Of a stretch of DNA of 64,000 bases, positions 29,610-63,973 are shown in pieces (the first letter of the stretch is position 1; each line of letters starts with the position of its first letter). The notes below the pieces were generated by a model that was given only the letters and a program-made list of their open reading frames with translations, was not told where the DNA came from and did no database searches. The stretch lies in NCBI GenBank assembly GCA_009746045.1, contig RPFO01000229.1, forward strand, positions 306,001-370,000, written 5' to 3'. A program made the position numbers and the translations under genes. The DNA comes from Mesostigma viride (Eukaryota; Streptophyta; Mesostigmatophyceae; Mesostigmatales; Mesostigmataceae).

Positions 29610-31113
29610 AAAAACAAAGGTTCCCCTGACGACCCCGCCAACTACAGAGGAGTCTGCATCCAGAGCGCCGCACTTAAGTTGTTCATGCGCATGATCCTCA
29701 ACCGCCTTCGTTCTGCTCTCGACTGTCACCTTGGGGAAAGTCAAATGGGCTTCCGTCCTGGGCGCAACACCGTCATGGCCATCTTCGTCGCGCGTCGCCT
29801 CTTCGAGGAAATCGCTCTCCTGCAACCTGGTGAGTTTCCCGCAATCCTGATCTTCGTCGACTTCATCAAGGCTTTTGATTCTGTCCTCTGGGACGCTCTA
29901 TGGGCTGTACTTGCTCGCGCTCGCGTCCCCACTCCCCTGATTACCGTCATCCGCACGCTGTATGAGGGGTCCACCACTTCGGTGCGCACTCAACACGGCA
30001 TTACCCCGCCATGCCCACTGCAGACCGGCGTCTGGCAGGGTTGCGTCCTGCATGTCGCCGTACCTGTTTATTATTGTAGTGGATTATGTTATGCGCCAGG
30101 CACGTGCTCGCTTTGCTAGCATTGCAGGCCGTGCCCCTGGCCTAGCGATCACGAACGAGCTTGGGGAAGGGGGGCCGACTAACAAGCAGAATTTACTAGC
30201 TGACCTCATTTATGCCGACGACATCACGCTCATCGAGAAGCCGGAGTCTGCCCAACTTTGGCTGGACTGCCTGGCGCTCGAGGCTCGGGCGGTTGGTCCA
30301 GAAATCAGCCCCAAAACGGAGGCCCTGGCCCTCGGCATGGCAGGGCCCCCACCCACACTCCGCCTCTTAGACGATGCCGAGGTCAACTACCCTCCTTCAG
30401 GCCGCTTCAAGCTGCTCGGCAGTTGGCTTCCCGACTGCGAGGACGACATGACGACACGGATCGGCATGGCGTGGGCGCACCTCCATGACCACCGCCGCTG
30501 GTGGAGCAACCCCGCCCTACCCCGGATCGTCAAGCGTGACCTCTTCAAGGTCGTCATTCTGACGATCCTGACCTACGGCGCCGAGACGTGGACACTGATG
30601 CAGGAGCTGGAGCAACGACTCGACGGCGCCGTCACCAAGATGCTGCGCAAGGCCCTTAACATCCCCTTTGGTTTGCACATTAGTAATGAGGATTTGTACG
30701 CTGATTTGCCCTATGTTTCCCACATTATTAGGCACAGGTGCCTGGGCCTAGCCGGGCACCTGGCCCGCACAGATCAGGTAGATACCTCAGATAGACTAGC
30801 TGGCACCAAGCCCGCCCAGCCTGGGCGATATGTCCTCACCTGGCGTGCCCCCGGCCGCGCGCGGCAGGGCCGCCACCCGTGGACTTTTCGTGATAGACTC
30901 GGCATGGACATGTGCTACACTAGACGTGACGGGCTCACCCCCGGGCAGCCTCCTGGTTTGTCTGTAATATGGAGGCAGATGGTGCGCAAGGATAGATGGC
31001 AAGTAGTGATGAAGGAGACCACCCCCAAGCCTGTGGGGGCTCCGCGTGTGACCAAGTATGGCATTCATAGCGATTCGGGCCGCGGTGCCCACACCCCTGT
31101 AACTAGGACCTAG
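29610..31113 (+). pseudogene. LINE-B ORF2, reverse transcriptase part (4-base insertion frameshift)
   Basis: Begins inside the RT domain (DPANYRGVCIQSAALK). Motif A is FVDFIKAFDSV, motif B TGVWQGCVL, motif C YADDITL. The C-terminal part includes CLGLAGHLART and ends at the stop 31113. About two thirds identical by eye to LINE-A ORF2, so it is a distinct family. Removing CATG at 30051-30054 would restore the frame through GCVL-SPYLFIIVV; with it, motif B and C are in different frames. The endonuclease half is missing. Confidence 0.8.
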
Positions 31114-31142
31114 ATAGCTTATACCATCCATTCCATGCTTAA

Positions 31143-32858
31143 CCCTTCAATTGTGTCAACTGGAACCACCAGAACGGACTGAGTATGGGCATCTTAGTAA
31201 GTATGAGAGTATCTAGCCAAATAACATTTTCTGGCCCACCCTTGGAACCAAGGATGCTTTTATATCAAATAACTTTGGGGTCATGTCATTGGTCACATAT
31301 CTATGCCCCACAGCTGCTATAAATAGCACCCCCCCCAAGGGGGTACGGTGCAGATGGGGTTCAAGAGATATATAATGCAATATGGACCATTTCTCAAAAT
31401 CTGCCGACCCTGGCCCTTTGAGGGGAGTTTAAGATAATCACAGGCATGCCATAGATGCATTCATAACATGACATGCCATAGAACTGCACAGGCTAGCTAG
31501 CATACAGCCCAAAATAGCTCAGACCGTTATAACGGGTGCAGTTATTTTGGGGTGTTTTGCTAGCACTACCGTATGGGCATTCAATTCCAACGTGGCACAA
31601 AACATCATAGATGGCCACACATGGATTCCCAAACACATTTCCAGCTTAAAAATCACAACAGCATGCTATACAACAAGTATAAAGCTTGTGCCAAGGCCCA
31701 AACCAAGCGTATAACGGGTTCACAAGGAGCTACATTATCAATGCATCCAACACACTATAAAGCAATTCCAATGATTGGCAATGATAGAAAAAACAAAAGA
31801 ACTAACCTGGTTATGCTTCCATGCAAGCAGGCCCTGGCCATTCATGTTTCTTGCATGCATTATGGACGCACAAGCAGAAGGATAACTTGGGCCAGCAAAC
31901 CAAGAAGCAATGCCTAGAGCTGGCCAGAAAACCACTTGTCTCGCTATGTCTGTGCAGGGAAAAGCATCCCGTTATCAAGCCCACCATGTTTAGAGACAAT
32001 ACCAAACGCTACTTCACTGGTTTCGTTGAAGCCTCAGCTAATAGCAATCAAATCTGGTCCAAAATCTGCGTGACATAGTGGTATTCCCCAACCATCACAA
32101 GCGAACGCGTACAAGCACTAAAGCAACAAAACGACAAGCAAAAACCATCGATTACATGTCTACAACTAGTTTATAAACGATAGGACGACTTGGTACTGTA
32201 ATGTATAAACGCTAACATGTTAATACGTACCAGGTCGAAACCGCAGATTACCTGCTGTGCGGGAGCCATCACTCCCACCTCACGGACATAGCCTCGAACC
32301 TTTCCTGGCCGTCATCGCTAATAAAACATGTCAAGAATAACGTAACAAGTCTATCCACGCGCAAATATATGGACGTTTGCTGCCGAACAACAGGTAGCAT
32401 ACGCACTGTCACCGCCTGACCGCTGACAGGATCTGCCGCACCGATTAGAACCTAGAGACATACTTGCGCACATCCAGACGCTTCACGGCCAGAGATATAA
32501 CCTTTATAACACTCAAGGATAATTACTACAAGATTTGAGTTCAAAATTCCAAGCCATGCTCTCGTACCAGTCATTTGCCTGCACCGCCATAGCCGCGGAA
32601 GTCAATTATTTTCATTCACGTCGGTCCCGTTTGACCATGGTACCCCCCCAACTTTGATTGAGTATATCTCCCTGGCCAGTTGTCCAAAGTACGGTCTGAA
32701 TAGTGCCAGGCATAGCTTACGTCTAGATCTTTCGATCCCCCCAGGTTTGACCGTTGAATTATTTTTGGCGCGGCGCCTGGTTCTGCCACAAACTCAGTCC
32801 GTTAGAGTGGCGCGAGTTCAACTGGCGCCACGAAAACGGACTCAGTACAAATTAAGGG
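31143..32858. mobile_element. TTAA-flanked element 3 (piggyBac-like, non-coding)
   Basis: TTAA at 31139-31142 and 32859-32862, ends CCCTTCAATT and AATTAAGGG. About 1.7 kb with no transposase frame. The target TTAA lies in the GCTTAAGCAGCA sequence of an ORF1 gene, a site still whole in other copies. Inverted-repeat similarity is short, so the family call is weaker than for copy 1. Confidence 0.55.
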
Positions 32859-32862
32859 TTAA

Positions 32863-33874
32863 GCAGCACGCCACCTCCACCACCTCCGCCGTCGCCGCCC
32901 AGCTTTAGCAGCAGACGCTGGACCTCCGCGAGGATCGAGGCCGAGCTCGCCAAGCGCAGCCTTAACGTCATAGTCAAGCACTTCGACCCGCTGCAGGACG
33001 AGACCTCCGAGACCCTTGCCCTGGCGTTTGAGAACAAAATCCTTGTCCCCATGGCTATCACTGGTAAGGGCACACTACAATACGGTTCGTAGGAGACGCG
33101 AAATGAGTGAGAATGTTACCCGAGCGGTAACGAGGATTCGCACCGTCGATTTTAACATATGTTTCTTTTTTTGCGCCATTTGGCGAGCATCGACTGGAGC
33201 CTGAACCTAGCGGGGGGAATCGTGCGGGGGAATCTTGCGGGGGAATCTTGCGGGGAAAAATTCCGAACGTGAATTTAGCGAAGTCCTACTACATTTTGCT
33301 TGGGTTCACGGTACTACAGTTTCGTCACTGAAAATTTTCTGTAGTTGCGTTGGTGTTTCGTACGTTTCGCTGAAATTTTCGTGTTCAGTGCCCAGATCAC
33401 AATTTGATCCGGGCGCAAAATGATTGGCTGTACGGTACGAACCAAAAACGAAATTTTAGTATCTAAGTTCCGCAGCGCTTGCTGAATTTGCCCCGGAAGC
33501 CCGGGGGCACTTTCCCCGCTGAAAAAGGTGTCCGCGGAAGCGTATTGTAGTGCAAGCCGCGGGGGGTGACCCGCCTTCCCCGCTCGCGGGGTAAGGCCGG
33601 CCCCTCCCCCTTGCTCCTCACCTTTGACACCATGGCGGATAAGATGGAGTTCCTCAAGTGTCGCAAGCGGCTTGGGGGGACCGCCTACACGCTGGACGAC
33701 GACTTGACCTTGACGCAGCAACAACGGCGACGGGAGCTATGGCCGACCTACCTCCAGCTTCGGCAGAAGGCGGGGCAGAAGCCGGTCTACTGGAAGGGGG
33801 CGGACATCTACGTCGCCCACAAGCCCTGGCAGGCGACCCCTGCCGCCCCAGCCACCCCAGCCACCCCAGCCTAG
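32863..33874 (+). pseudogene. ORF1-like protein remnants (subfamily C)
   Basis: Two pieces: 32863-33070 (STTSAVAAQL, in-frame stop, then a degraded HNVIVKHFD equivalent) and about 33556-33874 (TRLPRSRGKAGPSPLL, LDDDLTLTQQQRRRELW, ending in an Ala/Pro/Thr repeat). The gap is a CACTA-like insertion. It differs from A and B at many residues, so a third subfamily. Confidence 0.7.
33073..33552. mobile_element. CACTA-like miniature element
   Basis: 480 bp with ends CACTACAATACG and CGTATTGTAGTG in inverted orientation, interrupting the subfamily-C ORF1 gene. CACTACAA ends are typical of the CACTA/EnSpm superfamily (known). A clean 3-bp duplication is not visible (GCA left, CAA right). Non-coding. 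Confidence 0.5.
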
Positions 33875-35270: not shown

Positions 35271-36183
35271 GCCTCCTCGCGAAGGTCGAGGGCTTGTTGC
35301 TTGAGTTGTGCCGCGATGGTGGAGGTGGTGGAGGTGGTATGATGCTTAAGCAAGTCCGCCCAGGTGGAGGGAACATCACTGGCCGGGCCAGCAGGTGCCG
35401 GCTGGGCAGCGATTTCCTGCACCGCTTGGGCGGTGAGGCCGGCGGTGTCATGCAAGCTCTCAAGGGCGGTGGCGGTGGCTTGAAGGCGTTGGTCGAGGTC
35501 GAGGAGCTGGGCTTTGATGTCGGCAGTGAAGGCGGAAACGGCGGTGGAAGTGGAGGCGGCGGCGGTGGAAATGTGAGGAAGTTCAGCAGTCAGCGTGCCG
35601 CCGATTGCTGATATGTCGGCAGCAAGGGGGGTCACGTGCTGCTGGAAGGCTTCCGTCAGGATGGAACGGAGTGTGGGGGCGGAGATGGATGGAGCCCAGA
35701 TCTCGCCATCGGAGCGCTTGAGGAGGGAATTGAGAAGGGTATGCTGGAGTTGGGGGCGGGTGGTCCCGAAAAGCAGGTGGATGTTAACCCAGCGGATGCC
35801 GTTCGGGGTGAGGAGGCGATCGGTGTCGTGGAGATGGAGGCACAGGCCGTAAAGCGAAGCGTAGTCCCCGTAGAAGATGCATGTCATAGCATCGGACGGA
35901 GGCATGTTGTCCTGCAGTCGTAATCATCGACCTGGAAAGGCCGGGGCCGAAAGCGCGGTTCTGAGGGGCGTGAAGACCCTCCTGTTTGTCGGGCGCGTTT
36001 AGGGTCAGGCGATGCTGAGGGCGAGGCGTTGAGCCCGGGAGGTTGCTGGGCGACCACCAGTGCACGACTAGGGTCACTGCTGCCTGCCGGACCTGGCGAA
36101 GCTGCAGCCTGAGCTGCAGACGGATTTTCATGGCCGAGCGCATCCGCCAAACTGCGTTGCGTCGGGGGGCGTTTGCTCGTCAT
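35271..36183 (-). pseudogene. ORF1-like protein, N-terminal part (subfamily A, copy 3)
   Basis: From ATG 36183 (MTSKRPPTQRSLADALG) through LQHTLLNSLLKRSDGEIWAP and the helical region to LDLREEAE, where LINE-B interrupts it. One frame change lies near 35900. Joins conceptually to 29177-29609. Confidence 0.78.
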
Positions 36184-36222
36184 ATATTGCGTTTTAGATT
36201 CGGAAAATTATATATGCAGCAT

Positions 36223-36832
36223 TAAATTAAATTAAATTAAATTATAACATGCCTCCGTGGGGAGGTCATGTAGCACATATTTCATGATGGATGGGGTGGA
36301 GGAAGCCGCGTGATCGAACTATCCTAACTCTATCTAGAAAATCCTAACTGCACTACTCATCAAAACGCCTCCTCCGCTTGGGGGGAGGTGGCTTGCCCAC
36401 AGGGTCGGGCGTGTGCGCCTTGACAATCTTCTTCCACCGCGTCTTGTCCTGCATGGCAGTCCAAAGACGGGAGAGAGAGTGGATGCGGTGCTCAAACTGG
36501 GCTGGGACCACGAGGTCGTCCAGCAGCATCTGAACGTAGTTGGTGACAGGTTTCCCTACCCTTTTGGGAATGTCCTTGGGGCCAGGCCAGGTCAGAATGT
36601 GCCGCCCTGGCTGTCCAAGCCGCTGGGGGCCGGCCAGACCAAGGGTGGTGTCGACCTGGCTGGTGCGGGCAAGGTGTCCTACAAATGCTATCCTACGCTG
36701 TCTAATCTCGTCCGAAACACGAGGCATGCCATGATACAGAGACTCTGATGACGGACGCTCGGAAAAACCTACATTAAGGACCTAGCTGCCGGAGCATCCT
36801 GTAAACTGTGCCGTCGAGCCGAGCTGCCAGTT
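36223..36832 (-). pseudogene. LINE-A ORF2 C-terminal fragment with 3' end
   Basis: 5'-truncated LINE-A insertion in the 5' UTR of copy 3. The duplication is TATATCAGCAT on the right (36833-36843) and TATATGCAGCAT on the left (36211-36222; one extra base). The frame from about 36727 to the stop at 36353 encodes RQRRIAFVGHLART and the conserved C-terminus. Contains the CT-AG-CT insertion at 36782-36787. It is the inverted counterpart of 37029-38151. Confidence 0.8.
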
Positions 36833-37028
36833 TATATCAGCATGTGCGTCTTAGAAAGACGAAGCGATAGTGATATTCACGGCTAAATTCGGTGCTCAAA
36901 CGTGAAAGTTATGAGCTCCGACAGCCATGGCTACCTCGTCATGTATATATACTTTCCTGAAAGCCCATAAATCAAAGGATTTTTTGAGCTACTCAGACCT
37001 ACAAAATGCTCCGATTCATTAGAGAGAT

Positions 37029-38151
37029 GTTGGGGAGCTGGCTTCCTGACACCGCCGACGATGTGGACACCCGCATCGGCCTTGCCTGCATGGGCCAAGC
37101 TCCGTTCGCTCACACCCTACTGGCGCTCGAAGGGCCTGGACGGGCACCGCAAGCGCATGCTCTTCAAGGTCCTCGTCCTCACGGTGCTCACGTATGGCGC
37201 CGAGGCGTGGACCCTCCCACCCAAACTGGCAGCTCGGCTCGACGGCACAGTTTACAGGATGCTCCGGCAGGTCCTTAATGTAGGTTTTTCCGAGCGTCCG
37301 TCATCAGAGTCTTTGTATCATGGCATGCCTCGTGTTTCGGACGAGATTAGGCAGCGTAGGATAGCATTTGTAGGACACCTTGCCCGCACCAGCCAGGTCG
37401 ACACCACCCTAGGTCTGGCCGGCCCCCAGCGGCTTGGACAGCCAGGGCGGCACATTCTGACCTGGCCTGGCCCCAAGGACATTCCCAAAAGGGTAGGGAA
37501 ACCTGTCACCAACTACGTTCAGATGTTGCTGGACGACCTAGTGGTCCCAGCCCAGTTTGAGCACCGCATCCACTCTCTTGTTGCATTAAGAATTTAGCCA
37601 TGCTATGCCATGCAGAGAGATGCTCTGTGTCGAGAAGCCATGTCCTAGCTCTTGTATAGCCATGATGATCTTCCTCCCTCACAGGCATGCTCCCCCCTTA
37701 CCCGGGCATAGCGTGATAGACCATGAGGGTGCAGGTGCCTTGGTGCACCTAGAGCAGGGGTAGCTTACATTCCCACCCTTGCATGAAGTAGCCTAGAATG
37801 TATTAAAAGCCATATGCCCCTTCTCAGGGCTATGTGCTACTACATCTACTCCCAACGGAGTGATGTTGATAATTAATTAATTAATTAATCCACTCTCTCT
37901 CCCGTCTTTGGACTGCCATGCAGGACAAGACGCGGTGGAAGAAGATTGTCAAGGCGCACACGCCCGACCCTGTGGGCAAGCCACCTCCCCCCAAGCGGAG
38001 GAGGCGTTTTGATGAGTAGTGTAGTTAGGATTTTCTAGATAGAGTTAGGATAGTTCGATCACGCGGCTTCCTCCACCCCATCCATCATGAAATATGTGCT
38101 ACATGACCTCCCCACGGAGGCATGTTATAATTTAATTTTATTTAATTTTTA
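37029..38151 (+). pseudogene. LINE-A ORF2 C-terminal fragment with 3' end
   Basis: 5'-truncated LINE-A insertion, TSD ATTAGAGAGAT (37018-37028 and 38152-38162), in TTAA element copy 2. Coding sequence LGSWLPDTADDVDTRIG... to the terminal KRRRRFDE, split by a UTR-only unit at 37579-37887. Carries the TG-CA-TG insertion at 37087-37092, which shifts the frame. Confidence 0.83.
37579..37887 (+). mobile_element. 3'-UTR-only retroelement unit
   Basis: 309 bp flanked by ATCCACTCTCT (37568-37578 and 37888-37898), inserted in the ORF2 fragment. It consists of the distal ORF1-only 3' UTR, the stem-loop and a TTAA tail: effectively a SINE-sized passenger. Confidence 0.87.
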
Positions 38152-39732
38152 ATTAGAGAGATACACTGGTTTGAATACAGGGGGGTCTGACCATGACCGC
38201 GATTTCTTGACCCTAGGTCACAAGTCATGTGCTTATTCACAAATGGTTCATGCAAAAAATCTGGCTTCTTGCACGAGCTATGGGCAACATATGCAGGCTC
38301 TGTGAAACAAAACTCAGGCCCATTGGGCCACTGGAGCTATTTTTCATTAGCATCACAATTACAACGCAGTACAACGCAGTGGGAAACATGAGAGCCCTTC
38401 ACAACATTACGAAACGACACGAGCCCCATAAACGGGGCCATAGTGAGCTTGGAGGGTCAAAACGTTGAAAATAGGTGTTGTATAAGTTATACAGCATCAA
38501 ACATGCATCAAACATCATGACTGGATGACCTACATAATATGACTGAATCAGGCAGCCATAGCCAAAGCATCATCCACTCTCACAACGTGTTGAGCACATG
38601 CCTCGTGGGAACGGAGGTGGTGGGTTGTCATTCCATAACTCATGCAATACTGAAAGAAAGAGGCACGTGTAATGCAAGGCTTGGATAGGTTGAGTGATCC
38701 ATGAGCTTACATGCAGGCAAAGATGACGCTGGAATGCATGCTAGCAAATGGTGGCAAGATGCTAACAACACATGATTATACACCAGGATTATGGGCACCT
38801 AGCTGATCTTCTTGCACAATCAACGCAGTATAAACCATCAACATCCAATCCTCACGATATATGCACGGCTTGACGACGTATACAGCACCTAAATACTGCA
38901 CAACTGCAACCTGCTATGGCTGACATGCAAGCAACGTCGAGTAGGATGGCGGTCTTAGAGAGGCTGGGCAGAGGTCGGTAGAAATAAGTGGAAAACTGGC
39001 AGAAACTAGGTAGAAACACGATATACTTACGCCTGCAAGCACTATTGAGCCGGTGGCAGAGGCCATTTCCAGGAAAATACAGCATACCGTAGCAATAGCC
39101 ACGGTCACGCCTTACGCTATTTGCAGGCACCATCATGCCCGGAGCTACCCAATAAAAGTCTGCACAAATCTCGGTTTAGCCGAGAGTCCGGGCGTTCGGA
39201 ATGAATAAACATGTGTTAAGAAGTCGAAACACCATGGAAATACCAAGCATGGTGCCGCAGCAGACCCGAGTCTTGACGTAATAATATGTATGCCGGTTTC
39301 CAGGGTTTCCGCATGAAAGTTGGGTGAGAAACTGGAAAAAACTACGTTTCCTTTGCCCCAGTACCTCAACAAACTCGTAGAAACCTAATTATCAACCTTT
39401 GAACGCATCATCATGGTCGTGCCACCCAACAGCCACTGAAATTCGCGCGAAAACTGGCGAGATCTACCTGCCGCCATCGCCGTCGTCTTCACCTTCGTCC
39501 CGCGAAAATGCCTGATTTCAGTGGTACATATTTGTTTGCAGCTGTCACAAAAAAAATACCAAAAATACCAGGATTTTTTCTTGAATTCTATGAGATGTTT
39601 CTGACCTATGTTGAAAGTTTCAGACCAAAAATCGCATGTTTAATAGGTTTGCCACGTGTCAGATTACAACGCGATACATCGCGTTCTAACCCTACAACGC
39701 GATGAATCGCGTTGTAAAAAAACACGGGTTAA

Positions 39733-40540: not shown

Positions 40541-41139
40541 TAATTAATTAATTAATTAGTTAATTAATTAATTAATTAATAAATTAATTAATTAATTAAT
40601 TAATTAATTAGGAACATAACTCCGTTGGGAGTATTAATTAATTAATGAATTAGACTCGTGCTCCCATTGGGGAGTCACGGAGCATTAACCCCGATGGATG
40701 GATGGATGGGTGCAAACATTCCTACCGGTCTAATCTATCTACATTGGCTACATCTACGTTGGCTATATCTACGTTGGGAGTATATGTAGCACATAGCCCA
40801 GAGAAGGGGCATATGGCCTATCATACGTACATTCTAAGCTACTTCCTGCAAGGGTGGGAATGTAAAGGACCCTTGCTCTAGGTGCACCAGGGCACTTGCA
40901 TCCCCATGATCTTCAAGCTATGCCCAGCGAAGGGGGAGCCTGTCATGGGGGGGAAGATCAGCATAGCTATACAAAAAGCTAGGGCATGGCGTCTCAGCAG
41001 AGAGTGACTCCCTGCATGGGCACAACATAACTAAATAAAGCTAGGCATCATCTGGAGGGTGGCTCATCATAGGCACACATGTACATGATTAAATAAAAGC
41101 GCGTGGCTTAGCTGACCAGTATAGTGCCTCTAGGAGGCG
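40541..41139 (-). mobile_element. 3'-UTR-only unit with compound TTAA tails
   Basis: TSD TACATGTACAT (40530-40540 and 41140-41150). 40541-40790 is a pile-up of TTAA tails, a truncated LINE stem-loop (around 40620), a family-D tail and short CTACRTTGGCTAC repeats. 40790-41139 is a 3' UTR like those of subfamily B. Confidence 0.6.
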
Positions 41140-42796: not shown

Positions 42797-43211
42797 TGGT
42801 AGGTCGGCCATAGCTCCCGTCGCCGTTGTTGCTGCGCCAGGGTCAAGTCGTCGTCAAGGGTGAAGAGAGTCTTCGCGAGCCGCTTGCGGCGTCGGAGAAA
42901 AGAAAGCTTGTCCGCCGGGGTCTTAAAGGTGAGAAGGAGCGGGGGCGCCCCTGCCTTACCCCGCGCGCGGGGAAGGCGGTGGGCGACCAGCTCGATCTCA
43001 CCAGTAAGGCCCATGCGACTAAGAATTTCTCTCTCAAACGCACGTGCAAGCTTCTCGGAATTCTCACCTTCCTCCATGTCGAGGTTCTTGACAAATTATG
43101 ACGTTAAGGCTGCGCTTGGCGAGCTCGGCCTCCTCGCGGAGGTCAAGCGTCTGCGGCCGCTGCATGGAGCTGGGCTGCGACGGCGGAGGTGGTGGAGGTG
43201 GTATGCTGCTT
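42797..43211 (-). pseudogene. ORF1-like protein fragment (subfamily B)
   Basis: Partial ORF1 in the same orientation as the intact gene and directly 5' of that element's 5' UTR. It begins at the outer TSD (43212) and ends at the GGTAGGTCGG site. Contains a CATG insertion (43163-43166), a 3-base CGG-type insertion near 43154 and an AATT-type insertion near 43095, so no frame persists. The 5' UTR between it and 42584 has a 46-base duplication (about 42590-42667). Confidence 0.7.
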
Positions 43212-43364
43212 ATTAGAGAGATACACTGGTTTGAATACAGGGGGGTCTGCATGACCATGACCGCGATTTGTTGACCCTAGGTCACAAGTCATGTGCTGAA
43301 ACGACTAAAAATGATCATCCATAGTCCAAATATGAAAGATCTTTTACCTGGGTTGCCTTCTTAA
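43212..43364. mobile_element. Right remnant of TTAA-element copy and unassigned flank
   Basis: 43212-43300 continues the element whose left part ends at 15141: ATTAGAGAGATACACTGG and onward, with an extra CATG at 43250-43253 relative to 24870. After 43300 the match stops, and the next 65 bases are unassigned. Confidence 0.55.
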
Positions 43365-49530: not shown

Positions 49531-49622
49531 GGCATTTTTTTTCCAGGACTAGATCTGACAGAAAAATGCCTAGGCAATGCCTAGGCATTTTTCTGTCAGA
49601 TCTAGTCCTGAAAAAAAAATGC
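49531..49622. repeat. Near-perfect palindrome
   Basis: Arms 49545-49576 and 49578-49609 are perfect 32-base inverted copies around one central A, built on AATGCCTAGGCA. With one mismatch the pairing extends through T-run/A-run flanks to about 49531-49622. It lies 190 bases upstream of the zinc-finger gene start. Confidence 0.92.
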
Positions 49623-49797
49623 CTAGGCATTTTTTTGTCAGATCTAGTCGGTCGCAACTACCGTAGTAGCGAGGCATTTTATGCGAGCTCGACTGCTCGG
49701 CATTTTGGGTTTAACGGACTGCACTGCACTTCGAATTTGAATGAAAGCAACGTTGAACACGTTTTAAGGTGAGCTCAGTGGGTGAGAACAAGCGGAA

Positions 49798-51999
<2,202 letters not shown>

Positions 52000-52132
52000 A
52001 TTATTACTTGTTTCACTGAAATTATTGCAAGGAGTTGTTACAACTGGCATGGCATTTGTTTACAATCAACGGCTGCCTCCCAAGCTCAGGCAGCCAGGAA
52101 TTCAGGCTTTTGTACTAGACCAGCGGGAATAA

Positions 52133-52159
52133 GGGGGGGGGGGGGGGGGGGGGGGGGGG
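52133..52159. repeat. 27-base G homopolymer
   Basis: Uninterrupted run of G downstream of the Met-Gly gene within the TIR element. Length should be treated with caution because homopolymers are error-prone in sequencing. Confidence 0.85.
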
Positions 52160-53675
52160 CGGGGTTTGACGGAATAATTGAATGGGCTAGGCCAAAAGGC
52201 TAATTGTATGCAGTTATTTCGTTGATTTTACGTTACTTTGTGAGTTTGGCACCCAAGTGAGCAAACTCTTGGCCAACTGAGCAAACTCTCGGCCAGAGTC
52301 CAGACGGCCACCGACTCTGGGCTATGCACCCCATAGTGGTCTACCTGAGTCGGAACGCAAGGAGTTCTTCGAGTCCTAATTGCATAGCCTTGAGGGGGTC
52401 ACTCCGGCCCGCCACTTTTTGGTTATGCTGCTCGACGCCAATGCCACGCTCCCCGTGGGCACTGCTGGCAGTCGCTTTGCGCCTGCTGACACTACTGCTA
52501 ACGACAACACTCCCCTGTTTTCTGCCTTTTTGCGGGATAGCGGGATGGTTGCTGTCAACTGCCACTTCCAACGTCCCTCACAGGACTTGGTCACTTTTCG
52601 TGGCCCTAACGGCCGTCAGGCCTGTTTGGACTACGTGGTGGTACGGCAGTCAAGGTGCACCTCGGTCCTGGACACCTGAGTGTTTGACACGCCCACGGTG
52701 TGCATGCTCTGCATGACCATGCACCGGTTGGTGCGCGCGACCATTCGGCTCCGGTTCCACGTCCCCGTGCGCCGCGCCCCATTGGTCCGCCCTGACTGGT
52801 CTGCTCTACGTCCGGTCAAGGGAGATCCTGAGGACATGGACGGACGCGCCGAACACGAGCGGAACCGGTGCCGACGGGAGTACCTGTCGGCCCTGGGCGC
52901 CCGGGCGGATGTCGACGAGCTGGACAAGGGTGCCCCCAACGCCGCCATTTTTGCGGGCTTTGCGGCCCGTGCCCCGTTGCTGGCGGCCCGGCACCTGCCG
53001 GCCATGCCCCGCCGCCGCCCCGGCCCGCTCTATGTACCGCCAGGACCCCAAGGTCTTGGCCGCCCGGCCGCACCGCGCGCCTCAAGCGTAACCGGGACCC
53101 GCTGCAGAAACCAGTGCTCAAGGCCGCCCTCGTGGAGGCCTACGAGCACGCTCAGGACGCGGAGGCGGCCCAGTGCATCGCGGATGCCAAGGCCTGCCAG
53201 GCTCGCAACCAGGGCAAGGACATGTGGTATACCACCTCGACCGGCTCGGCGGCCGGCGGCAGCGCACCCCGGTGGAGCACACGGGGGACGGCACGGCGCC
53301 GGTCAGCCTTGACCGCTGGTTGCATGGCCCACAATGTTTCCTTGACCGGTGGGGCTCGCGCCCCCCCCCCCGCCGCTTCACCCCGGCCCCGAGATCGACG
53401 GCCGCCCGCCTCGGGGTTGCCGGACCCCCGCCGCCGCCAGCGCCCCCCTCCTCGGCCGGCCGCGGACTACCATTGTCGGCAACTTGAAGTCCCCGCCTTG
53501 CAGGAGGGCTGCCTTGCCACTGACAACGTCGTCCCCCCCTTCACTTAATTTGAAGGAATTGGACGTCCGGCGCACTTGCTCGCCTGCGGTACGATGCGGC
53601 GGTCGGTGCATGCCGACCACCTTTCTGCTGAGCTGCTGAAGACCCCTGATCCGGCGGTTAGGGATCTTCTGCTGG

Positions 53676-54322
53676 AGTTAGCATTTTGGGCAACCAATAT
53701 GCTAAGTGGATGCAGTTTGGAAAGACCTTTCCAACGCCGTGCTGACCGCCTGAAACAGACAAGGGACGAGAAAGATATGAGGTCCCGAAGTCCTAGCCGT
53801 CCGTGGCCGACTAGGGTACAGTCCTCTGGTATAGTGGACAGGACACGTGGCAGGCCGTGCCTGCACAGGCTTAGCCTGACTATCACGTGACTGTGGTCCA
53901 CGTAGACCAGAGGAGCAGCAGCCTGTGGCTGGTGGAATACAGGACTGGCACAGGTCTGCAAGGATACTAGGCCTTGCAGGCTTGTGACAGGTCCTGTACT
54001 TCCTAGGTTGCAGAGTCTAGGCAAATCCAGTTCGTCCTGGCTCTGCACTGATGCCAGTGGACGTTGAGGATTTGCTTGCCTGCCTGCACGTGCCTCGTCA
54101 CGCCGATGGGAACGAGGAACAACGCAAAGGATATAGCTTGGTCATGGGGGATGACCAGCTATCTTGGCAAGCACGAACCGAGGCTCCCACATTGGACGTG
54201 GAACCGCTCACCGTGGTCGTGGCTTGGTGCACGGGTTAAAAGGTTGCTGCCTTGCAACTTTGGCTCATCCCGTTGTGTGGCGTGAGAGACCAGGAACTCA
54301 CAGTTCTGGCTGCTCGCTAACT
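53676..54322 (+). repeat. 5' LTR
   Basis: 647 bp, starting AGTTAGC and ending GCTAACT, which form a 7-bp inverted terminus. This differs from the usual TG...CA. No primer-binding site for a known tRNA was recognised immediately downstream (CGTACTATTGCATTTC). Confidence 0.92.
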
Positions 54323-54353
54323 CGTACTATTGCATTTCTGTTTGCAAGGTTTC

Positions 54354-55324
54354 ATGTCGGCCGAGGCTCGGGTTGAGACACCTGAGTCATCTCCCAGGCG
54401 CGAAGCAGCTCCAGAGTTGCCGGCGCGCGAAACGCATTCTACCCCTATAATCACCCATCCAACGCTTCTACATTTGTGCAAGCGGCCTACGTTGCGAGGG
54501 GCCTTGCGGAAGGAGGTTGGGTCGCTGTGTTCGGTAACGCAGCAGGGCCGTCGGCAAACGACCCTGTGGTGATGAGGATTCGGGCGACGACGTCGCCAGG
54601 GGAAACAGGGCGGGTCTGCACGGAGCGCCTCGTCGCCATTCGCGACGAAATTGCTTCGTTGATCTACAGTTTAGAAGTTGCGTACCAGGGCGGGCACGTA
54701 ACCATCCAGGCGCTGGACTTAGCGCGTGAGACGCTGGGCCAACTGGTGGCCATCTGTTTAGGTGGAACCAGATTGTATAATCACTGGGTGGCGACAAGCT
54801 CGCTGGGGGAGGGGACCGACGCGTCACATCATACGGGACGCGCAGACGCGCGAGGCCGATAGCCCGTGGGATTCGGCCGAGGTGGTGGCTCAAACGTGTG
54901 AGCACCTGGTCAACATTCTGATCCAAGAGGCGCGTGGTCACGCCGATCACTGGGTGATCACTACGCGTCCGCCGGGCATTTGGTCGACCTTGGACACTCC
55001 GAGGTTGCAGAGCAGGCCAGGGGCGACTGGGCCGACGGTGACAGTCATCACCGGTCGGGACGTCTCCGACGAGGAGTTCCACGAGCAGTTCGTGGACCGA
55101 CCAACGGGCATCATAGCCCGTCGTCACAACAGATTGACGAGGGTGACGGCACAAACGAGGGATACTCAGCTCGGCGTAGGGCAGAGTTAAACATACCCTT
55201 TGAGCCGGAACACGATTTTGCTGAGATTGGTCGGGGTCGCGGAACGACCGGCGAGGTGGTGGTAGTCGGTGGGTCAGAAATCTTCAGTGGTATCGCCGTG
55301 GCAGTGCGCCTAGACTGCCGGTAG
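54354..55324 (+). pseudogene. Extra ORF upstream of gag
   Basis: Unrecognised. Overlapping frames (from MSAEARVETPESSP, through LAEGGWVAVFGNAAG and AQTCEHLVNILIQEARGHADHW, to FEPEHDFAEIGRG) read as one about 310-residue product if three small shifts near 54480, 54785 and 55180 are allowed. Mid-region helices with His and Trp but no zinc knuckle. It could be a leader ORF or a duplicated or divergent capsid piece. Confidence 0.45.
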
Positions 55325-55549
55325 AGCAGACAGCAGCCGGGAGGCCGGTGAGCCGTGTGCTAGGTCCTTACAACGCGGAGGAGGTCCGCTCAGTTCCACG
55401 CGTGGGGACACCGGTGGCACGCACAGCGCAGGAGCGTGAGGAGGAGGCAGTAGCTGGAGAGCAGCCAGCGGCTTCTTCAGGCAGCACCAGCGCTTGAGCC
55501 TGTTTTCCTTGTCTATCGCCTGTTTTGTTTTGCCATCCCACTGTATATA

Positions 55550-56905
55550 ATGCCTCGTGGCAAACCGGGAGACGGCGACAAGGGCGAGATGGAGGCACCG
55601 GCTGGGCAAGCCAGGAGCCTCGGCAAGACAAGGAGCAGCTGGTGGGGGAGGCGATCCCAGCCAGCGACGGCGATGGGGGAAAGAGACCAGGCAGCAAGAG
55701 ACGGCACGAAGACTCGGTGGAGGAGGCGCGCAAGGCGCGGGCGCTAGGGCATCTGATGCAATAACGGTGGCGAATGGGCAACCTGCCGTGGAGAAGCGTA
55801 AGAGGGACACCTCCGCTGACGGCAATGGTAAGAGGCCTCACGTGGATGTGCTCTCCCCTGTGCTTGCTGGCCCAAGTGGCGTTGTTGCTGTGACACCCAC
55901 TGTGGTGGAGCCGGTGAAGCGCTGCCAGGGTCGAGACCTCACATGAGTGCAGTCACGCTTATGAATGGACAAAAGCCTCTTAACCCACCACTAGCACAGG
56001 AAGCTCTAGACAAGTGGCTAGAGGACATGGAGCTGGTTGTGCTCTCCGTGGACCCCACTGTCAACCTAGTGCAAGTGTTTCACTCGTCCACGTGCAACAG
56101 GGACTCGTCAGAGCGTGTCAGGGAAAAGGCTAGGACTGGTGTCAAGGATAAGCTAACCTGGGCACAGTTCCTGGATGGGTTGAGGGAGGAGTTCTCTGAC
56201 AAGGTTCTCAACCTCACCAACTACTATAAACATCAGTATGACACCTTTGAGATAGTGGGTCCTGTGGCAGAGGAATGGGCTAGGCTCAACCGTATCAGGG
56301 ACAAGGGGGCCAAGTATGGCTTCCTGGTCACAGATAGGGCCTTGGCAGACTATTTCCTGGACCGTATGGGTTTGAGTGTGGATGGGAGGAACAGTGCCCG
56401 CATGTTTCTTAACCAGACTGATGGCTCCTTGCGTGCTCTGGAGCTTGTAATCCTCAGCATAAGGAAGCCAGATCCTGCCTGCAAAGCTATCCAGTCCCAT
56501 GGCAGCAATGCCACCTCCGCTGTGCAGGGCCAAGGTGATGTCCCCGGGTACCCAGCCCGTGATGGGGCAAGGCCCAACAAGCGTAAGCGCTTCAGGCGCC
56601 AGAGGCAGGGGGCTCAGGGTGGCAAGGGTGCAGGTTCCCAAGGAGGGGTTGGGAGCCAGCAAGCTGGTGGTCAGCAGGGTAAGGGTGGCCAAGGGCAAGG
56701 CAAGGGCCAAGCTCAAGGCAACCAGGGCAAGCAGGGTGGACAGTCTCAGGGAGGCCAGGGAAGCCTGGCAAGGGTGGGGCTGGGTCTGGGAAGAAGGGTG
56801 GAGCATGCTTTGTGTGTGGCAAGGAAGGTCACTGGCGTCGTGAGTGTCCTGACAGGAAGGCCAAGCCTGCTGGGGCAGGGGGCCAGTCTGGGCAGCAGTG
56901 ACTAG
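55550..56905 (+). pseudogene. Gag with CCHC zinc knuckle
   Basis: The N-terminal part (MPRGKPGDGDKGEMEAP..., 55550) is charged and shifted more than once before 55960. The main frame from about 55943 encodes a capsid-like region (EALDKWLEDMELVVLSVDP, LTWAQFLDGLREEFSDK, YYKHQYDTFEIV), then a Gly/Gln/Lys-rich linker. The knuckle CFVCGKEGHWRREC (56806-56847, C-x2-C-x4-H-x4-C) is in another frame because one base is missing near 56760. It packages element RNA in virus-like particles (family knowledge). Confidence 0.75.
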
Positions 56906-57264
56906 CTACATCATCCCCTGTAAATAGTCAATCACCCCTTGGGGAAGGTGTGTTGGATGTACATAAGGATGGGGGTGTGCCCCTTGTGCAGCACCAAGGG
57001 TGTAAAGATGTTGTTCTTCCACTGGATTGCAATAACAATGCTGCAGCTGAATTCCCTATGCCTCATGCAGGTGGTGGGTCTCCAGCAGGTGCTGGCCTGG
57101 AGGGCCAAGGACCTTGCTGGAAGGGCCTGGAGCGGTCCAGGGTGCAGGACCTGGCTTGGGGCGTCAGGATGGCCTGCAGGGAAGCCCTGGAACCTCAGGA
57201 GTGGATCATGTGTCCCCACACACGGTTCAGACGTCTCGCCAGGTCAGTACTGACAGAGTGCTGA

Positions 57265-58843
57265 GCTATGCTGAGGCTGGCCATAGATTGCATCATATGT
57301 TTGGGCATTCTGGGCAGGCAGCAATGTTTGCTTGGAAGCTAGGTAGGGAGCCTTTGTGGGAGGCATGCCAGGCTGCTGCTGAGAACTGTGGTTGCCAGGA
57401 GAATGCTGTTCACCCACCTCAGTCCCATGCTAGGGAGCCTGCTAGGGAGCGTGGCGACATCCAGATGGATATCCAGCATATCAGGGGCTTGTATATATTG
57501 GTGGGGTGGACAGGTTCAGCAGATACAGGCTGATAGACGTTCTGCCTGGTATGCAGGAGCACCACTTGTTGTTGGGTATGAAGGCCCTGATCCCAGGCTT
57601 TGGGGTGTGCAAGAGTGTGCAGGCAGACTTGCAGTTTGACTGTTTGCTCAAGCATCAGGACCAGCTGCCTTGTAAGCTGGTAGTAGTCCCCAGGGAGAGT
57701 CATGGGCAGCAAGGGGCTGTAGAGAGATCCATACGTGAAGTGAAGACAGTGGTGCTAGCAGCAGAGTCAGTGCCACTTGTGGCATCTGCCTTAGAGAGGG
57801 CAGCCTGGTGTAAGGGGATAGAAGAGCAGCTGAACCACAGGGTTAACTATTACTTTGATGGTGTGGCTGTCTCTCCCCTGGCCCTGCAGTATAGCTTGTT
57901 GCCTGAGAACGTGGTGCAGGCCAGTCTTAGGAAGGCAGATAGGTTATTTGCCCAGCTGAGACGTAAGGACAAGAACTGGAATGTGCTGAGGCCTCAGGTG
58001 GGGCTGAAGGTCAGGATGTGGAAGGAACCATCTATTCCAGGCAAGCGGGGGAAGTGGCAGGATGGGGTTGTCACTCGTGTGGAAGAAGCTAACAGATCTT
58101 GCCTGGTGGCTTTGGAAAAGGATCCAAGGCACGTGTACAGGTTGTCCTGGGCTCATGTCAAGGAAAGAAGGCCACATGCAATCTGGCCTGCAGACGGGCC
58201 AGGCCCTCCCAGCTGGGTTGAGGAGCCAGGCCAGAGCCAGGCAGCAGCAGCTAACAATCCTCTGGTGGTGGATGATGGTCTGTCCCTGCTGGAAGATGAC
58301 GAGCAGGAGGAGGCTGCTGAAGCAACTGTCACAAGGCCAGAGGGGACGGGGCAGCCACCTAAGGCCCGGGGGCCTCTCATGGCGGACGTCATCCGAGCAC
58401 TCATGCGCAGCAAACATGATCCCAAGGTATCCAAGCTCACGGGGTGGGGGTCGTGCTGGGCAGCTACAATGGAGGTAGATACCAACTCACAGGTGTCTGT
58501 CATCAGGGAAGAGGATGCTGTAGGCTTACAGATGTCCCATCCCAGTTGCCTTGCTGTGTCTGATTTCTCAGGAAAGGTGTCCATGAAGATCCTTGGGGAA
58601 GTGAGTGTGCCTATCTTAGGGGTGCCCACCACGTTCTGTGTGGTAGAGGGCTATAAGGGGCCTGCCATTCTGGGACAGAACTTCTTGTGCATGCCAGGGG
58701 TTACTTTGACCTCTGATGAGTTGGCACTAGAAGGCAGGGGCAGCCTCCCCCTTGAAAGATATCACTATTCCCAGGGTCTTGCAGTGGCGGTGAAGGCTGT
58801 TAGGAGTCAGCCAGCTGAGGGTCCTCAGGTCAGGAGCCCATAG
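57265..58843 (+). pseudogene. Pol: integrase followed by protease-like domain
   Basis: The integrase zinc region HRLHHMFGHSGQ ... CGCQEN lies at about 57286-57400. The catalytic core starts DIQMDIQH, with VDRFSRYRLIDV in the frame from 57506, and reaches the acidic block SHGQQGAVERSIREVK (about 57700-57750). A chromatin/SH3-like C-terminal part (LKVRMWKEPS, GKRGKWQDGVVTRVE) follows. Downstream in the same frame is a retropepsin-like segment: MEVDTNSQVSVI (about 58470; DTN in place of the usual DTG) and AILGQNFL (about 58665). Protease downstream of integrase is not the standard copia order. The frame ends at 58843. Confidence 0.72.
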
Positions 58844-60469
58844 CTGAGGACTTGTTGATAATCCCAACCACCTTTGATCCAAGGCAGTTAGGGGTAAACA
58901 GGTACCAGATAGCTGCTCACAGTCCTATTCCCTGGCGCCAGCTAGTCGAGATGATGCAAGCCCCAAGATGGCTAAGGCATGGACTCTTGGCTTTGTTGCT
59001 TCTGGGCATGAGTGGATAGTTTCCAACTGTGCAGAACCTGTGGATGAGCTGCCAGAAGTTCACCAGCTGCTCAGATTGATGTTTGTCCTCAAGCTCAAGG
59101 AGGTTGATGGTGTCCAGGTGCCACATGTCAGACCAGTTGTAACCGAGTATCATGGCACTGGCCAGTTGTTAGATGAGGAGCTCTATACTCCAGGGATGCT
59201 GCATGACACGTGGAGGATTCTGCTGTGTATATTTCTGTCTTTTCTGGTTAAGGGTGTGCCCTATAGCTCTGTGCTGATTGATTTCAAGAGGGCTTTTCTC
59301 AAGGGTGACCAAGATCAGGCTAGGCAGACTTGGAGAGATATCCCTCCTTTCTTTGTGACTGTACCTGCTGTATGGAGAGCAGAGATAAAGGCCAGGTACC
59401 TGAGAATTCTGAAAGGGTTGGAAGGTCTCAGGTCCAGTCCCATTATCTGGAGAAAGAGCCTAGAGAAATTCTTGAAGAATACTTGTGGGTTTTCTGTGTC
59501 TCCAGTGGATCCCTGTTTGTTCCAAGGGTCCACAATGGCCTTCCTGTCTTTGCCTCACTGCATGGTGATGACCTGCATCTCATAGGTCCACCAGACTGGG
59601 TTGAGGCTGTCTTGGCTAAGATCCAGAAGCGGTTTGAGCTGGGTAAGATACAGCACATGGTGGAGAATGAGCCTATGGTCTTCTGTGGCATGCAGGCTAC
59701 GTTGTTCCAAGCCAAGGGCTCGTGGTTCATCAGGATGGAGGGTGGTAAGGACTACCCACAGCAGATTGTAGATGCATTGCAGGAGCCCATCACGCAGGCT
59801 AGGTGTGCTACCATCAGGGGCATGCTGGCATGGCTTGCAAGTATATGTGCCCCTGACTTGCTGGTTCTGAGTCGACTTACTGATTCCCAGCTGGTTGAGG
59901 TGGGTGCTGAGAGTGTGGTGCAGGCTGTCATGATGTCTCCCCCTCTCATACTGGGTCCTGTGGATTTGTACAAGCCCCTTGACATGGTTCTCTATGTAGA
60001 CAGTTCTATGGATAATAGGAAGGTCACAGAGGTCAGGGGCAGGGCAGCAGCATTAGTTACCCTGGAGCAAGATCACACCTCACTTGTTACCTGGTACAGT
60101 CGGTTGCAGAACAGGGTTACACCCAGCAGTGATATTGCTGAGTGCAGGGCAATCTGTGAAGGGCTGCATACTGCTCTTTACTTGAGGGAGCTCTTCTACC
60201 AGCTATGTCAAGTGGCTTCCTGTAGGTTGCAGCTGCACACACTGGTGAGGACTGATAGCATGGGCATGGTGCAATTTGTGCACAGGCAGCTGGCCAGGAG
60301 CAGGGACCTTGACTACTTGTTGCTCAAGGAGATGTCCTACCTAGCTCACATTGAACATGTGCCTGGTGTGGACAACCCTGCAGATGCCCTCACCAAGCTG
60401 GAGGAGAAGGCGGAGAGGCAGTACCCCCTGCTCCGTGGGCTCATGGACCCCTTACACGGGCGGCCATAG
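58844..60469 (+). pseudogene. Pol: copia-type reverse transcriptase and RNase H
   Basis: Three frames are needed. RT begins in the +1 frame after 58843 (PWRQLVEMMQAP), continues from 58968 (MAKAWTLGF...) with motif A LIDFKRAFLKGD (about 59277-59312), and shifts near 59520 into the frame holding motif C LHGDDLHLIG (about 59555-59585; the usual Tyr before the variable residue is His-Gly here). RNase H shows YVDSSMDNRKVTEVRGRAAA, TPSSDIAECRAI and the terminal HVPGVDNPADALTK. The stop at 60469 completes pol. Confidence 0.8.
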
Positions 60470-61480
60470 AGACCAGGCCTTGCTTCAGCTTGGGTGCCCC
60501 CAGTGGGCTGCTTGACCAAAGTACCAAGTGGTGACTGGTGCTTACTGGTTGACAGCCGGTCCTTCAGGGTTAGGTACACCCTCCTGGACAGGAGTTGGTG
60601 TGGAATGTCACTCCTACCAGCTGAGAATCATGCCTGGCCCTCCCCATGGGGTTCAGAAGAGTCGCCAGGACTTAAGTCGACGCCTTTGGCCTCAAACAGT
60701 TAGGCCATGCAAGGGCAACCCGAATGTTGGTTCTTACAGGTTGCTGTATATATGTTTTCTAGTGCTTGTTTCCAACCTGTTGCTAATAAAGAACCTGGTT
60801 GTGTGACCATGTGGAACATGGTTGCCAGGGGGCCACATTCTGGGTTATATAATGCTTGAATAAAACATAATCATGTCATGTCATTCTCATGTTGTTCTCA
60901 TGGTTGTAATGTTTCTCTTGTGTAAAGTTCCAGGTCACCTATAAACCTGGAGGTTGGGGTGGGGTTCAATTCCCCAGCAGAGCCACAGCCTGGCATGAGT
61001 GATTCCTGGGCTTAACACCCAGTGAAGACATGGGCTCCCCAATAAGGCAGTATTTGTATAGGTGCTACCTGAGTCTCTTTGAGCATAAAAGGGAAAGGCT
61101 GGCCAAGGCGGGCGCCATAAGAACGGGCGCCTGTGATAACTGTGAAAGATCAGGAACTCACAATAGTACGTTCTTGGCATCCTGTAATCCCAGCCATTGG
61201 ACTAGGTAATGTGCCTTGACTTTAATCTAGCACCAAGTTCCCAAGGAAAGGTTGGGAGCTGACCAAGGGGTCAGGGGATAACCTGGGGTGACCTCTGATT
61301 CACTGGCCAGTACACCTAGCCTGGTCCAAGGGCAGATATGTTGTTACCCAAAGGAGGCAGGAACCTGGGCCCTCAAAGGTCTGATCAACCTCAAGGGACC
61401 AAGCGGTCTGTGGCTGAGTGGGCACAAGCAAGGTTAGGCTTGTTTCAAGCTGGTCCAGCTCCAAAAGAAGAAAGGGTTGG
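60470..61480 (+). other. Non-coding 3' part of the LTR element
   Basis: About 1 kb between the pol stop and the 3' LTR with no coding signal. It ends in the polypurine tract AAAAGAAGAAAGGG (61463-61476), the presumed primer for plus-strand DNA. Confidence 0.65.
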
Positions 61481-62126
61481 AGTTAGCATTTTGGGCAACC
61501 AATATGCTAAGTGGATGCAGTTTGGAAAGACCTTTCCAACGCCGTGCTGACCGCCTGAAACAGACAAGGGACGAGAAAGATATGAGGTCCCGAAGTCCTA
61601 GCCGTCCGTGGCCGACTAGGGTACAGTCCTCTGGTATAGTGGACAGGACACGTGGCAGGCCGTGCCTGCACAGGCTTAGCCTGACTATCACGTGACTGTG
61701 GTCCACGTAGACCAGAGGAGCAGCAGCCTGTGGCTGGTGGAATACAGGACTGGCACAGGTCTGCAAGGATACTAGGCCTTGCAGGCTTGTGATAGGTCCT
61801 GTACTTCCTAGGTTGCAGAGTCTAGGCAAATCCAGTTCGTCCTGGCTCTGCACTGATGCCAGTAGACGTTGAGGATTTGCCTGCCTGCCTGCACGTGCCT
61901 CGTCACGCCGATGGGAACGAGGAACAACGCAAAGGATATAGCTTGGTCATGGGGGATGACCAGCTATCTTGGCAAGCACGAACCGAGGCTCCCACATTGG
62001 ACGTGGAACCGCTCACCGTGGTCGTGGCTTGGTGCACGGGTTAAAAGGTTGCTGCCTCGCAACTTTGGCTCATCCCGTTGTGTGCGTGAGAAACCAGGAA
62101 CTCACAGTTCTGGCTGCTCGCTAACT
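61481..62126 (+). repeat. 3' LTR
   Basis: 646 bp, about 99% identical to 53676-54322, starting AGTTAGC after TTGG and ending GCTAACT before the GCTGG duplication. Confidence 0.93.
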
Positions 62127-63973
62127 GCTGGCGTTCTGCAACCGTGTTCTGCTTTCTGACGAGCCTCCGCCTGCTGAGTGGCAGACGGCCATCCGCGTCA
62201 TGCTGTACAAAAAGGGCTCTGCTGCTGACCCCGGTAACTACAGGGGTGTCTGCCTCCAGAGCGCCGCGCTGAAGGTCTTCATGCGCATGATGCATGCTGC
62301 ACAGGCTCCGCGCCGCGCTGGACCCACACCTGGGTGAGTCTCATGCAGATGGGTTTCCGTCGTGGTCGTAAAACACTGTCATGGCTGTGTTTGTCGCGCG
62401 CCGGTTGATGGAGGAGGTGCGTCGCCTTCCCCCTGACAGTTTGCCGCTGGTCTTCATTTTTGTTGACTATATCAAGGCCTTTGACACGGTCCTATGGGAG
62501 GCTCTTTGGGCCATCCTAGCTCTGGATCGAGTGCCACCTGCGTTTATTGCTGCCATTCGCCGACTGTATGAGGGCTCACAGGCAGTAGTGCGGACTGCGG
62601 AAGGCACCACCCCACCATTCCCCCTTAATTCACCACGGGGTGTGGCAAGGTTGTGTCCTGTCCCCATACCTGTTCATTATTGTCGTGGATCACGTCATGC
62701 GCCGGGCACGTGCGCGCTTTACTGCTCTTAAGGGGTTCGAGCCAGGCTTGGACATCCTTAACGTGAAAGAGCACGGCGGGGTTAGACCTGGTTACCGCCT
62801 TGCCGACCTGATTTATGCGGATGACACCACCCTCATCGAGAGCCCCGAGCACATTCAGACCTGGCTGGACTGTCTGGGCCTGGAGGCGCGGGCGGTGGGG
62901 TTGGAGATTATAGTGTCAAAACTGAGGCGATGGTGATTGCATGGGGCCTCCAGTACACCACCGCTGCATGCCGCGCCTGCTCGACGGGAAGGAGGTCCCG
63001 TTCCGCGACCGCTTCAAGCTGTTGGGGAGTTGGCTTCCTGACACTGCCGACGATGTGGACACCCGCATCGGCCTTGCCTGGGCCAAGCTCCGTTCGCTCA
63101 ACACGGTCCTACTGGCGCTCGAAGGGCCTGGGCGAGCACCGCAAGCGCATGCTCTTCAAGGTCCTCGTCCTCACAGTGCTCACGTATATGGCACCGAGGC
63201 GTGGACCATCCCACCCAAACTGGCAGCTCGGCTACTAAGACGGCACGGTTTACAGTGTACAGGATGCTCCGACAGGTCCTTAACGTATAGGGTTTTCCGA
63301 GCGTCCGTCATCAGAGTCTTTGTATCATGGCCTGCCTCGTATTTCGGACGAGATTAGGCAGCGTAGGATAGCATTTGTAGGACACCTTGCTCGCACCAGC
63401 CAGGTCGACACCGCCCTTGGTCTGGCCGGCCCCCAGCGGCTTGGCCAGCCAGGGCGCCACATTCTGACCTGGCCTGGCCCCGAGGGCATTCCCAAAAGGG
63501 TAGGGAAACCTGTCACCAACTACATCCAGATGTTGCTGGACGACCTAGTGGTCCCAGCCCAGTTTGAGCACCGCGTCCACTCTCTCTTCCGTCTTTGGAC
63601 TGCCATGCAGGACAAGACGCGGTGGAAGAGGATATTCAAGGCGCACACGGGCAACCCTGTGGCCAAGCCCGGCCCCTCCCCCCAAGCGGAGGCGGCGTTT
63701 TGATGAGTAGTGTAGTTAGGATTTTCTAGACTAGATAGCTTAGAGTTAGGATGGTTCGATTACGCGGCTTCCTCCACCCCATCCATCATGGAATATGTGC
63801 TACAGTGATCTCCCAACGGAGGCATGTTATAAGTTAATTTAATTTAATTTTAATCCATCCATCCATCCACCGAATTTGTCCCGAATTTGCAAGCATAAGG
63901 GTGAGGCTCTTCCGAAAATTGGCTCCGCCGTAGAGTTTCAACGGGCAAGTTGCAAACACGCACGTTACTTGAT

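Follow-up and report, generated by a model that had tools for sequence, protein, structure and literature searches.

Why do copies of the same repeat differ, again and again, by exactly four bases that spell a palindrome? The question is raised by a 64,000-nucleotide stretch of the streptophyte alga Mesostigma viride (contig RPFO01000229.1, positions 306,001 to 370,000; hereafter the window, with coordinates counted from its first base). This is eukaryotic DNA filled with nested copies of long interspersed nuclear elements (LINEs), and the paralogs for comparison come from them. An earlier note, made by eye, had listed 22 places at which a dinucleotide X appears to have become X, its reverse complement rc(X), and X again. 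We refer to this four-base gain, X-rc(X)-X, as XRX and to a doubled dinucleotide, a gain of two, as XX. We find that the signature is real and more lawful than the earlier note saw. On balance, we lean towards explaining the insertions as footprints left when cut-and-paste transposons with 2-bp target duplications were excised via hairpins, CACTA/EnSpm-like elements being the likeliest source.

The hexamer is present at all 22 places. By itself this proves little: the window contains 56 copies of TGCATG (about 1.6 times a first-order Markov expectation) and 74 of CATGCA (about 2.1 times). When the window was aligned against itself (alignments of at least 80 bases, identity at 20 or more of 24 flanking positions, no long tandem arrays), 18 of the 22 proved to be four-base insertions relative to paralogs. 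The trio at 52701, 52710 and 52718 was removed by the flank filter, yet it shows three separate four-base gaps against 19356-19373. Altogether, 21 of the claimed insertions align as such against a sister copy, although GCGCGC at 53075 is doubtful, its X being self-complementary and another gap adjoining it. The remaining one, 51716, fails: its surroundings are a tandem array of GGCATG, and in the alignment GG is lost. Seven further cases had gone unlisted, at 32933, 40824, 53321, 53453 (within a CGGC repeat), 53545, 53607 and 63669. Of 38 four-base insertions seen across the window, 25 obey XRX, compared with 1.3% of simulated random four-base insertions and 11% of simulated four-base tandem duplications, and the claim of an excess beyond chance stands. 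With X of three bases, none of 14 six-base insertions in the window obeys the analogous rule. With X of one base, 10 of 34 two-base insertions do, and two-base insertions were therefore examined separately.

The regularity extends beyond the window. Further loci (L-numbers below) were fetched from the same genome, 439.9 Mb in 2,243 contigs (C-numbers below). In a first pooled set, consisting of the window and 58 loci (337,497 bases, 24,668 of them N), 62 of 125 four-base insertions obey the rule. In the full pooled set of 61 sequences (two loci added; 355,497 bases, 24,668 of them N), for which the filters were slightly different, 71 of 161 are XRX with a non-palindromic X, 23 of them inside the window and 48 outside; set against the 1.3% for random insertions, this count over 355 kb puts the excess on a wider footing. 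The polarity also agrees with the earlier suggestion that the plain form is ancestral. It is the majority form in all 49 XRX events having more than one comparison (the other 22 have a single comparison each) and in 14 of 16 such events of the palindromic XX type, a further five having a single comparison.

Examination of the two-base insertions revealed the second half of the rule. For self-complementary X (AT, TA, CG, GC), the main product is not a gain of four but a gain of two, from X to XX. In the full pooled set, ordinary dinucleotides gave 71 XRX and three XX, whereas self-complementary ones gave one XRX and 21 XX (Fisher 5e-17). Likewise, two-base tandem duplications outside homopolymers in the first pooled set comprised 23 palindromic cases (TA 10, AT 6, GC 4, CG 3) and three others; just 32% of XX tetramers standing in the sequence are palindromic. 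Could polymerase errors, through template switching or foldback at very short inverted repeats, produce this pattern with no break at all? Locally inverted copies are a known class of change. Such errors, however, leave unexplained why the unit is two bases, with 25 of 38 insertions obeying at four bases and none of 14 at six, and they do not predict XX for self-complementary X. We regard this explanation as very improbable.

A two-part rule of this kind would follow from the behavior of a transposon. Entry of the element would duplicate the target, turning X into X-element-X. At excision, both flanking ends would become sealed hairpins terminating in X, and were these nicked two nucleotides past the tip, they would leave 3′ overhangs, of which the left reads X-rc(X) and the right, in top-strand terms, rc(X)-X. 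Since the two ends share X, the outer two nucleotides would be complementary and could anneal, and gap filling would then yield X-rc(X)-X. With a self-complementary X, the entire four-nucleotide overhang would anneal instead, giving XX. Transposons that duplicate 2 bp of target leave just such an identical X on the two sides. Hairpins had already been proposed in the earlier note, and both that idea and its arithmetic hold up well, but the details had to be changed, namely the number of palindromic (P) nucleotides, the source element and the need for a special nuclease. One P nucleotide per end predicts a gain of four for every X, including TATATA from TA; the 21 palindromic XX against a single palindromic XRX speak instead for two P nucleotides per end, joined by annealing. 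In V(D)J coding joints, too, opening a hairpin beyond its tip produces a palindromic 3′ overhang, but those joints are not known to involve a 2-bp duplication or a uniform product.

Is there an element of the required kind? Inside a LINE copy of the window, a scan for terminal inverted repeats (TIRs) and target duplications, followed by reading, identified a 480-bp non-autonomous CACTA-type miniature inverted-repeat transposable element (MITE) at 33073-33552 on the forward strand. Its TIR is CACTACAATACG(G/C)TTC, with CACTACAATACG at both ends, and it is flanked by a 2-bp target duplication, CA, at 33071-33072 and 33553-33554. The TIR 16-mer occurs 332 times in forward and 349 times in reverse orientation in the genome, its reversed control not once. 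From a genome search, 40 of 756 first-look candidates were scored and 40 placements were read from 38 loci; three pairs of placements share a flank, hence not all 40 are independent. The genome holds at least 40 copies, all of the scored ones about 99-100% identical, and CACTACAA stands at the left end in 36 of the 40 placements. The flanks match over exactly two bases in 22 placements, over three bases in two, inside microsatellites in three, over one base in eight and not at all in five. A match of at least two bases is thus seen in 27 of 40, where a two-base match is expected in about one in 16. The duplicated pairs are mixed (AT 6, CT 3, GG 3, GA 3, TC 2, GT 2, CA 2, TT 2, and one each of CG, AC, TG and GC), and, among the comparisons listed, empty sites carry the pair once, both for L017 and L004 compared with copies about 99% identical and for L009 compared with LINE copies 76-90% identical. 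Two pairs of TIRs of this family lie 5.4 and 7.2 kb apart (C280:76281-81674 and C298:7491-14712) and may mark longer parents.

The affinity of the MITE is with CACTA/EnSpm, but it is not complete. As in the plant elements, the TIR starts with CACT(A/G), and the genome is rich in matches to Transposase_21 (PF02992): among the best 150 of 239 candidates, which were scored, all 150 exceed the cut-off, as opposed to none in 14 control genomes. Many of these matches share the same score and a few have internal stops. Plant CACTA elements, however, make 3-bp duplications according to passages in PMC4423477, PMC8195511 and PMC2613891, whereas the duplication here is 2 bp in both the window copy and the empty sites. 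For this reason, we call the MITE CACTA-like rather than a member of the plant-type CACTA group. The statement of the earlier note that the insertions fit no one known transposon is nonetheless weakened by a high-copy element with mixed 2-bp duplications in a genome with 150 scored Transposase_21 matches.

Other known systems resemble the scars in part. Passages in PMC5873905 and PMC4561436 describe Ac/Ds (hAT) excision in plants and yeasts, with hairpins formed on the flanks and palindromic P-nucleotide insertions; joining at microhomology follows hairpin opening (PMC5873905). Here, inserted bases equal the reverse complement of the flank in 71 of 161 four-base insertions. hAT elements, however, make 8-bp duplications, as tabulated in PMC4423477, and leave heterogeneous footprints, whereas here X is two bases and each class of X has one main product. 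In mPing (PIF/Harbinger), identical duplications likewise give complementary ends that guide repair, but there, in the account given in a section of PMC4561436, the duplications are cleaved with a stagger and repaired precisely, while here the added bases are inverted. Tc1/mariner elements share the 2-bp duplication, yet they target TA, and the extra bases derive from the element and not from the flank (Mariner/Stowaway, in the corresponding part of PMC4561436). In the scars, X is mixed and the extra bases are rc(X). A few TA-CA-TA cases may nevertheless belong to Tc1/mariner: the TATGTA and TACATA insertions at 53031, 38531 and L058:1746 resemble what we take to be its footprints, and TACTGTA at L058:8239, a five-base insertion between copies 97% identical, is presumably akin to a 3-nt mariner footprint. 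The mixed X likewise differs from the TTAA duplication of piggyBac. As far as titles and the openings of abstracts in the footprint, hairpin and CACTA literature go, we found no description of this signature, although one may still be in print.

Several observations weigh against excision of CACTA-like elements as the origin of the scars. Among the sequences compared, we found no site at which one copy holds an element and another a scar; L007 and L014, compared as a filled and empty pair, share a stretch that ends inside a MITE and is uninformative. CACTA ends were sought in L059 and L060, which bear Transposase_21, and none were found; no Transposase_21 match was tied to the TIR of the MITE. 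Target preferences also disagree: pyrimidine-purine steps (CA/TG, TA, CG) account for 42 of 92 scars but four of 27 MITE duplications (Fisher 0.004), and AT for five of 92 versus six of 27 (Fisher 0.016). The 480-bp MITE as it stands therefore cannot be the main source, and other or older families would be needed. Many insertions do not follow the rule. In the full pooled set, 89 of the 161 gains of four bases follow neither form; in the first, 41 of 125 have zero or one base of flanking homology, and 11 are X-NN-X with exactly two-base homology and NN other than rc(X), nine with self-complementary X. Young events often break the rule: among six four-base events between copies at least 96.5% identical, CTAGCT and TACGTAC obey it, a TTAA microsatellite accounts for one, and the other three, CTGGCT, TACATA and ATCTATC, violate it. 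The event rate is also high: the aligned repeats, 135.8 kb in all, carry 80 rule events, and sequences with at least one have between 0.2 and 2.9 per kb. Were this rate representative, our guess would be some 1e5 scars genome-wide.

A genome-wide search with one LINE pattern (plain length 119 bases, net gains up to 8) illustrates both sides. It gave 389 matches, of which 100 were listed, and among the matches listed 27 exceed the plain length. A net gain of four is the commonest (7), followed by +8 (5), +2 (4), +1 (3) and two each of +3, +5, +6 and +7. Insertions were read within 80 letters per match, and several longer matches carry theirs further on. Those that obey are CA-TG-CA at C2:5889847 (beside CG to CGCG), TG-CA-TG at C3:538994, TT-AA-TT at C191:180058, AG-CT-AG at C446:5775173 and GT-AC-GT at C777:3228916 (with other changes in the row), and one at C503:19638 is partly visible. 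To be counted with the objections are TGGG (C291), CACT (C313), ACCT (C335:1976346) and TACT (C887:4603820), as well as CTGA at C503 and C557:442218, which is probably inherited.

Finally, the insertions are known from assembled sequence only, and this invites the thought that they are artefacts of assembly or polishing. According to parts of PMC6947507, a published assembly of the species (strain NIES-296, 2,363 scaffolds) combined PacBio RSII, Illumina and optical maps and was polished with Pilon. An artefact would nevertheless have to follow a rule set by the sequence, change its product when X is self-complementary, leave the plain form in the majority at every one of the 49 XRX events with several comparisons, and recur on many contigs. 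Of the explanations weighed here, we consider it the least probable.

The disagreement in target preference lends itself to two other readings. One is a transposon-independent process acting genome-wide: a nuclease, for example, or some quirk of end joining, would make breaks that have a 2-base stagger and hairpin ends, and the transposons would be bystanders. This is close to the suggestion in the earlier note of a new nuclease or repair pathway targeting repeats, which is not needed to account for the scars, although the preference leaves some room for it. That the signature is seen in repeats reflects the fact that insertions are visible only where repeats allow comparison. The scars are spread over the aligned repeats, and the tight spacing remarked on earlier is no special feature: in a test set that did not include the 52701 trio, four pairs of rule events lie within 30 bases, compared with 3.3 expected. 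Pairs within 120 bases do exceed chance (22 versus 11.6), as expected if copies differ in age. Such a process would fit these data, the scar preference unlike that of the resident MITE and the failure to catch an excised site. However, it requires a new enzyme with exactly 2-base staggers in a genome where an abundant element family already leaves 2-bp duplications and CACTA transposase matches abound. We hold it to be unlikely, if still credible.

The other reading keeps the mechanism and changes the element, to a different hairpin-forming superfamily or another CACTA family that makes 2-bp duplications and prefers TA and TG/CA. This would remove the conflict in target preference, and other DNA elements are indeed present, with duplications of TTAA, of 3 bp (TGG) and, by eye, of 5 and 6 bp. 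But when we looked for TIR elements with 2-bp duplications in the window and the fetched pieces, the matches listed comprised several chance pairs and the MITE, and among them only the MITE has empty sites that confirm its 2-bp duplication. Such a source seems to us unlikely, marginally more so than a process without transposons.

Should excision of CACTA-like elements be the correct explanation, the two-line rule (XRX, or XX for self-complementary X) would allow excisions to be counted in any genome assembly without recourse to active elements. It would provide sequence evidence that CACTA-like elements with 2-bp duplications are excised by way of hairpins on the flanks, that these open two nucleotides beyond the tip, and that the target duplication itself guides repair. 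A large part of the four-base insertions in the old repeats of this alga would stem from cut-and-paste transposons, and excision would be a ready source of +4 frameshifts.

The individual sites of the window, all given on the forward strand, vary in the quality of their comparisons. TG-CA-TG in a LINE copy at 30049-30054 is a four-base gap against two paralogs, and the previously unlisted GA-TC-GA at 32933-32938 is likewise a gap against paralogs. CT-AG-CT at 36782-36787 is absent from a sister copy 97.5% identical. Paralog alignment supports TG-CA-TG at 37087-37092, 43161-43166 (with an adjoining 3-base gap) and 47619-47624, CT-AG-CT at 46316-46321 and, unlisted before, AC-GT-AC within TACGTAC at 40824-40830. 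Two sister copies are plain at TG-CA-TG 43248-43253 and five at GA-TC-GA 44429-44434. One LINE copy carries four insertions within 48382-48608 (TT-AA-TT 48382, CC-GG-CC 48486, CA-TG-CA 48533 and 48603); wherever a sister copy aligns cleanly at one of these sites, it has the plain form. The trio of TG/CA-type insertions occupies 23 bases of another LINE copy (52701-52723), which also bears, within 53321-53613, TG-CA-TG at 53321, CGGCCGGCCG at 53453 (in a repeat, and weak), TT-AA-TT at 53545 and TGCATGC at 53607. Five more lie in a single LINE copy at 62290-62970 (62290, 62342, 62625, 62938 and 62965). For CC-GG-CC at 63669-63674, sister copies offer no clean CC and most have CA. The +2 product is exemplified by TA to TATA at 53228-53231, with further cases at 45585, 62909, 63185 and 63286.

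As to coding content, a LINE reverse-transcriptase frame at 16927-18624 (minus strand) aligns along 58% of its length with a protein named jgi/Mesvir1, at 98% identity; a search for the LINE protein in viral contigs found none. Among 10 window frames searched against Pfam, two contain RVT_1 and one Exo_endo_phos, and four further window frames gave no match. Ten frames of the fetched pieces gave RVT_1 below the cut-off in one, AAA domains in one and no transposase. Rfam at the gathering threshold gave no match.

Several further features of the repeats were noted. LINE 3′ ends (36180-38150, 46792-46863 and others) have (TTAA)n or (ATTA)n tails, which probably explain the excess of TTAATT and AATTAA in the window. 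A 2.9-kb DNA element at 49402-52317 within a LINE copy has the TIR GAGT(T/C)GGTGGCCGT and a 3-bp duplication, TGG; its long frame includes a stretch of GGCATG repeats and has no Pfam match. LINE copies in the fetched loci hold two more TIR elements, at about 2190-3165 of L004 and at 1184-2485 of L053, whose duplications, as judged by eye, measure 5 bp and 6 bp. Inspection by eye of its ends (TTAACCCGTG, with a TTAA duplication) marks an element at 24664-26409 as piggyBac-like, and there is a related copy of it at 38149-39732. The two have 1,584 bp in common, at 98.9% identity, and TACATA at 38531 distinguishes them. A LINE copy also harbors a long terminal repeat (LTR)-retrotransposon-like element at 53673-62126, whose terminal direct repeats are 100% identical over the 300 bp compared and match L059 over about 650 bp.

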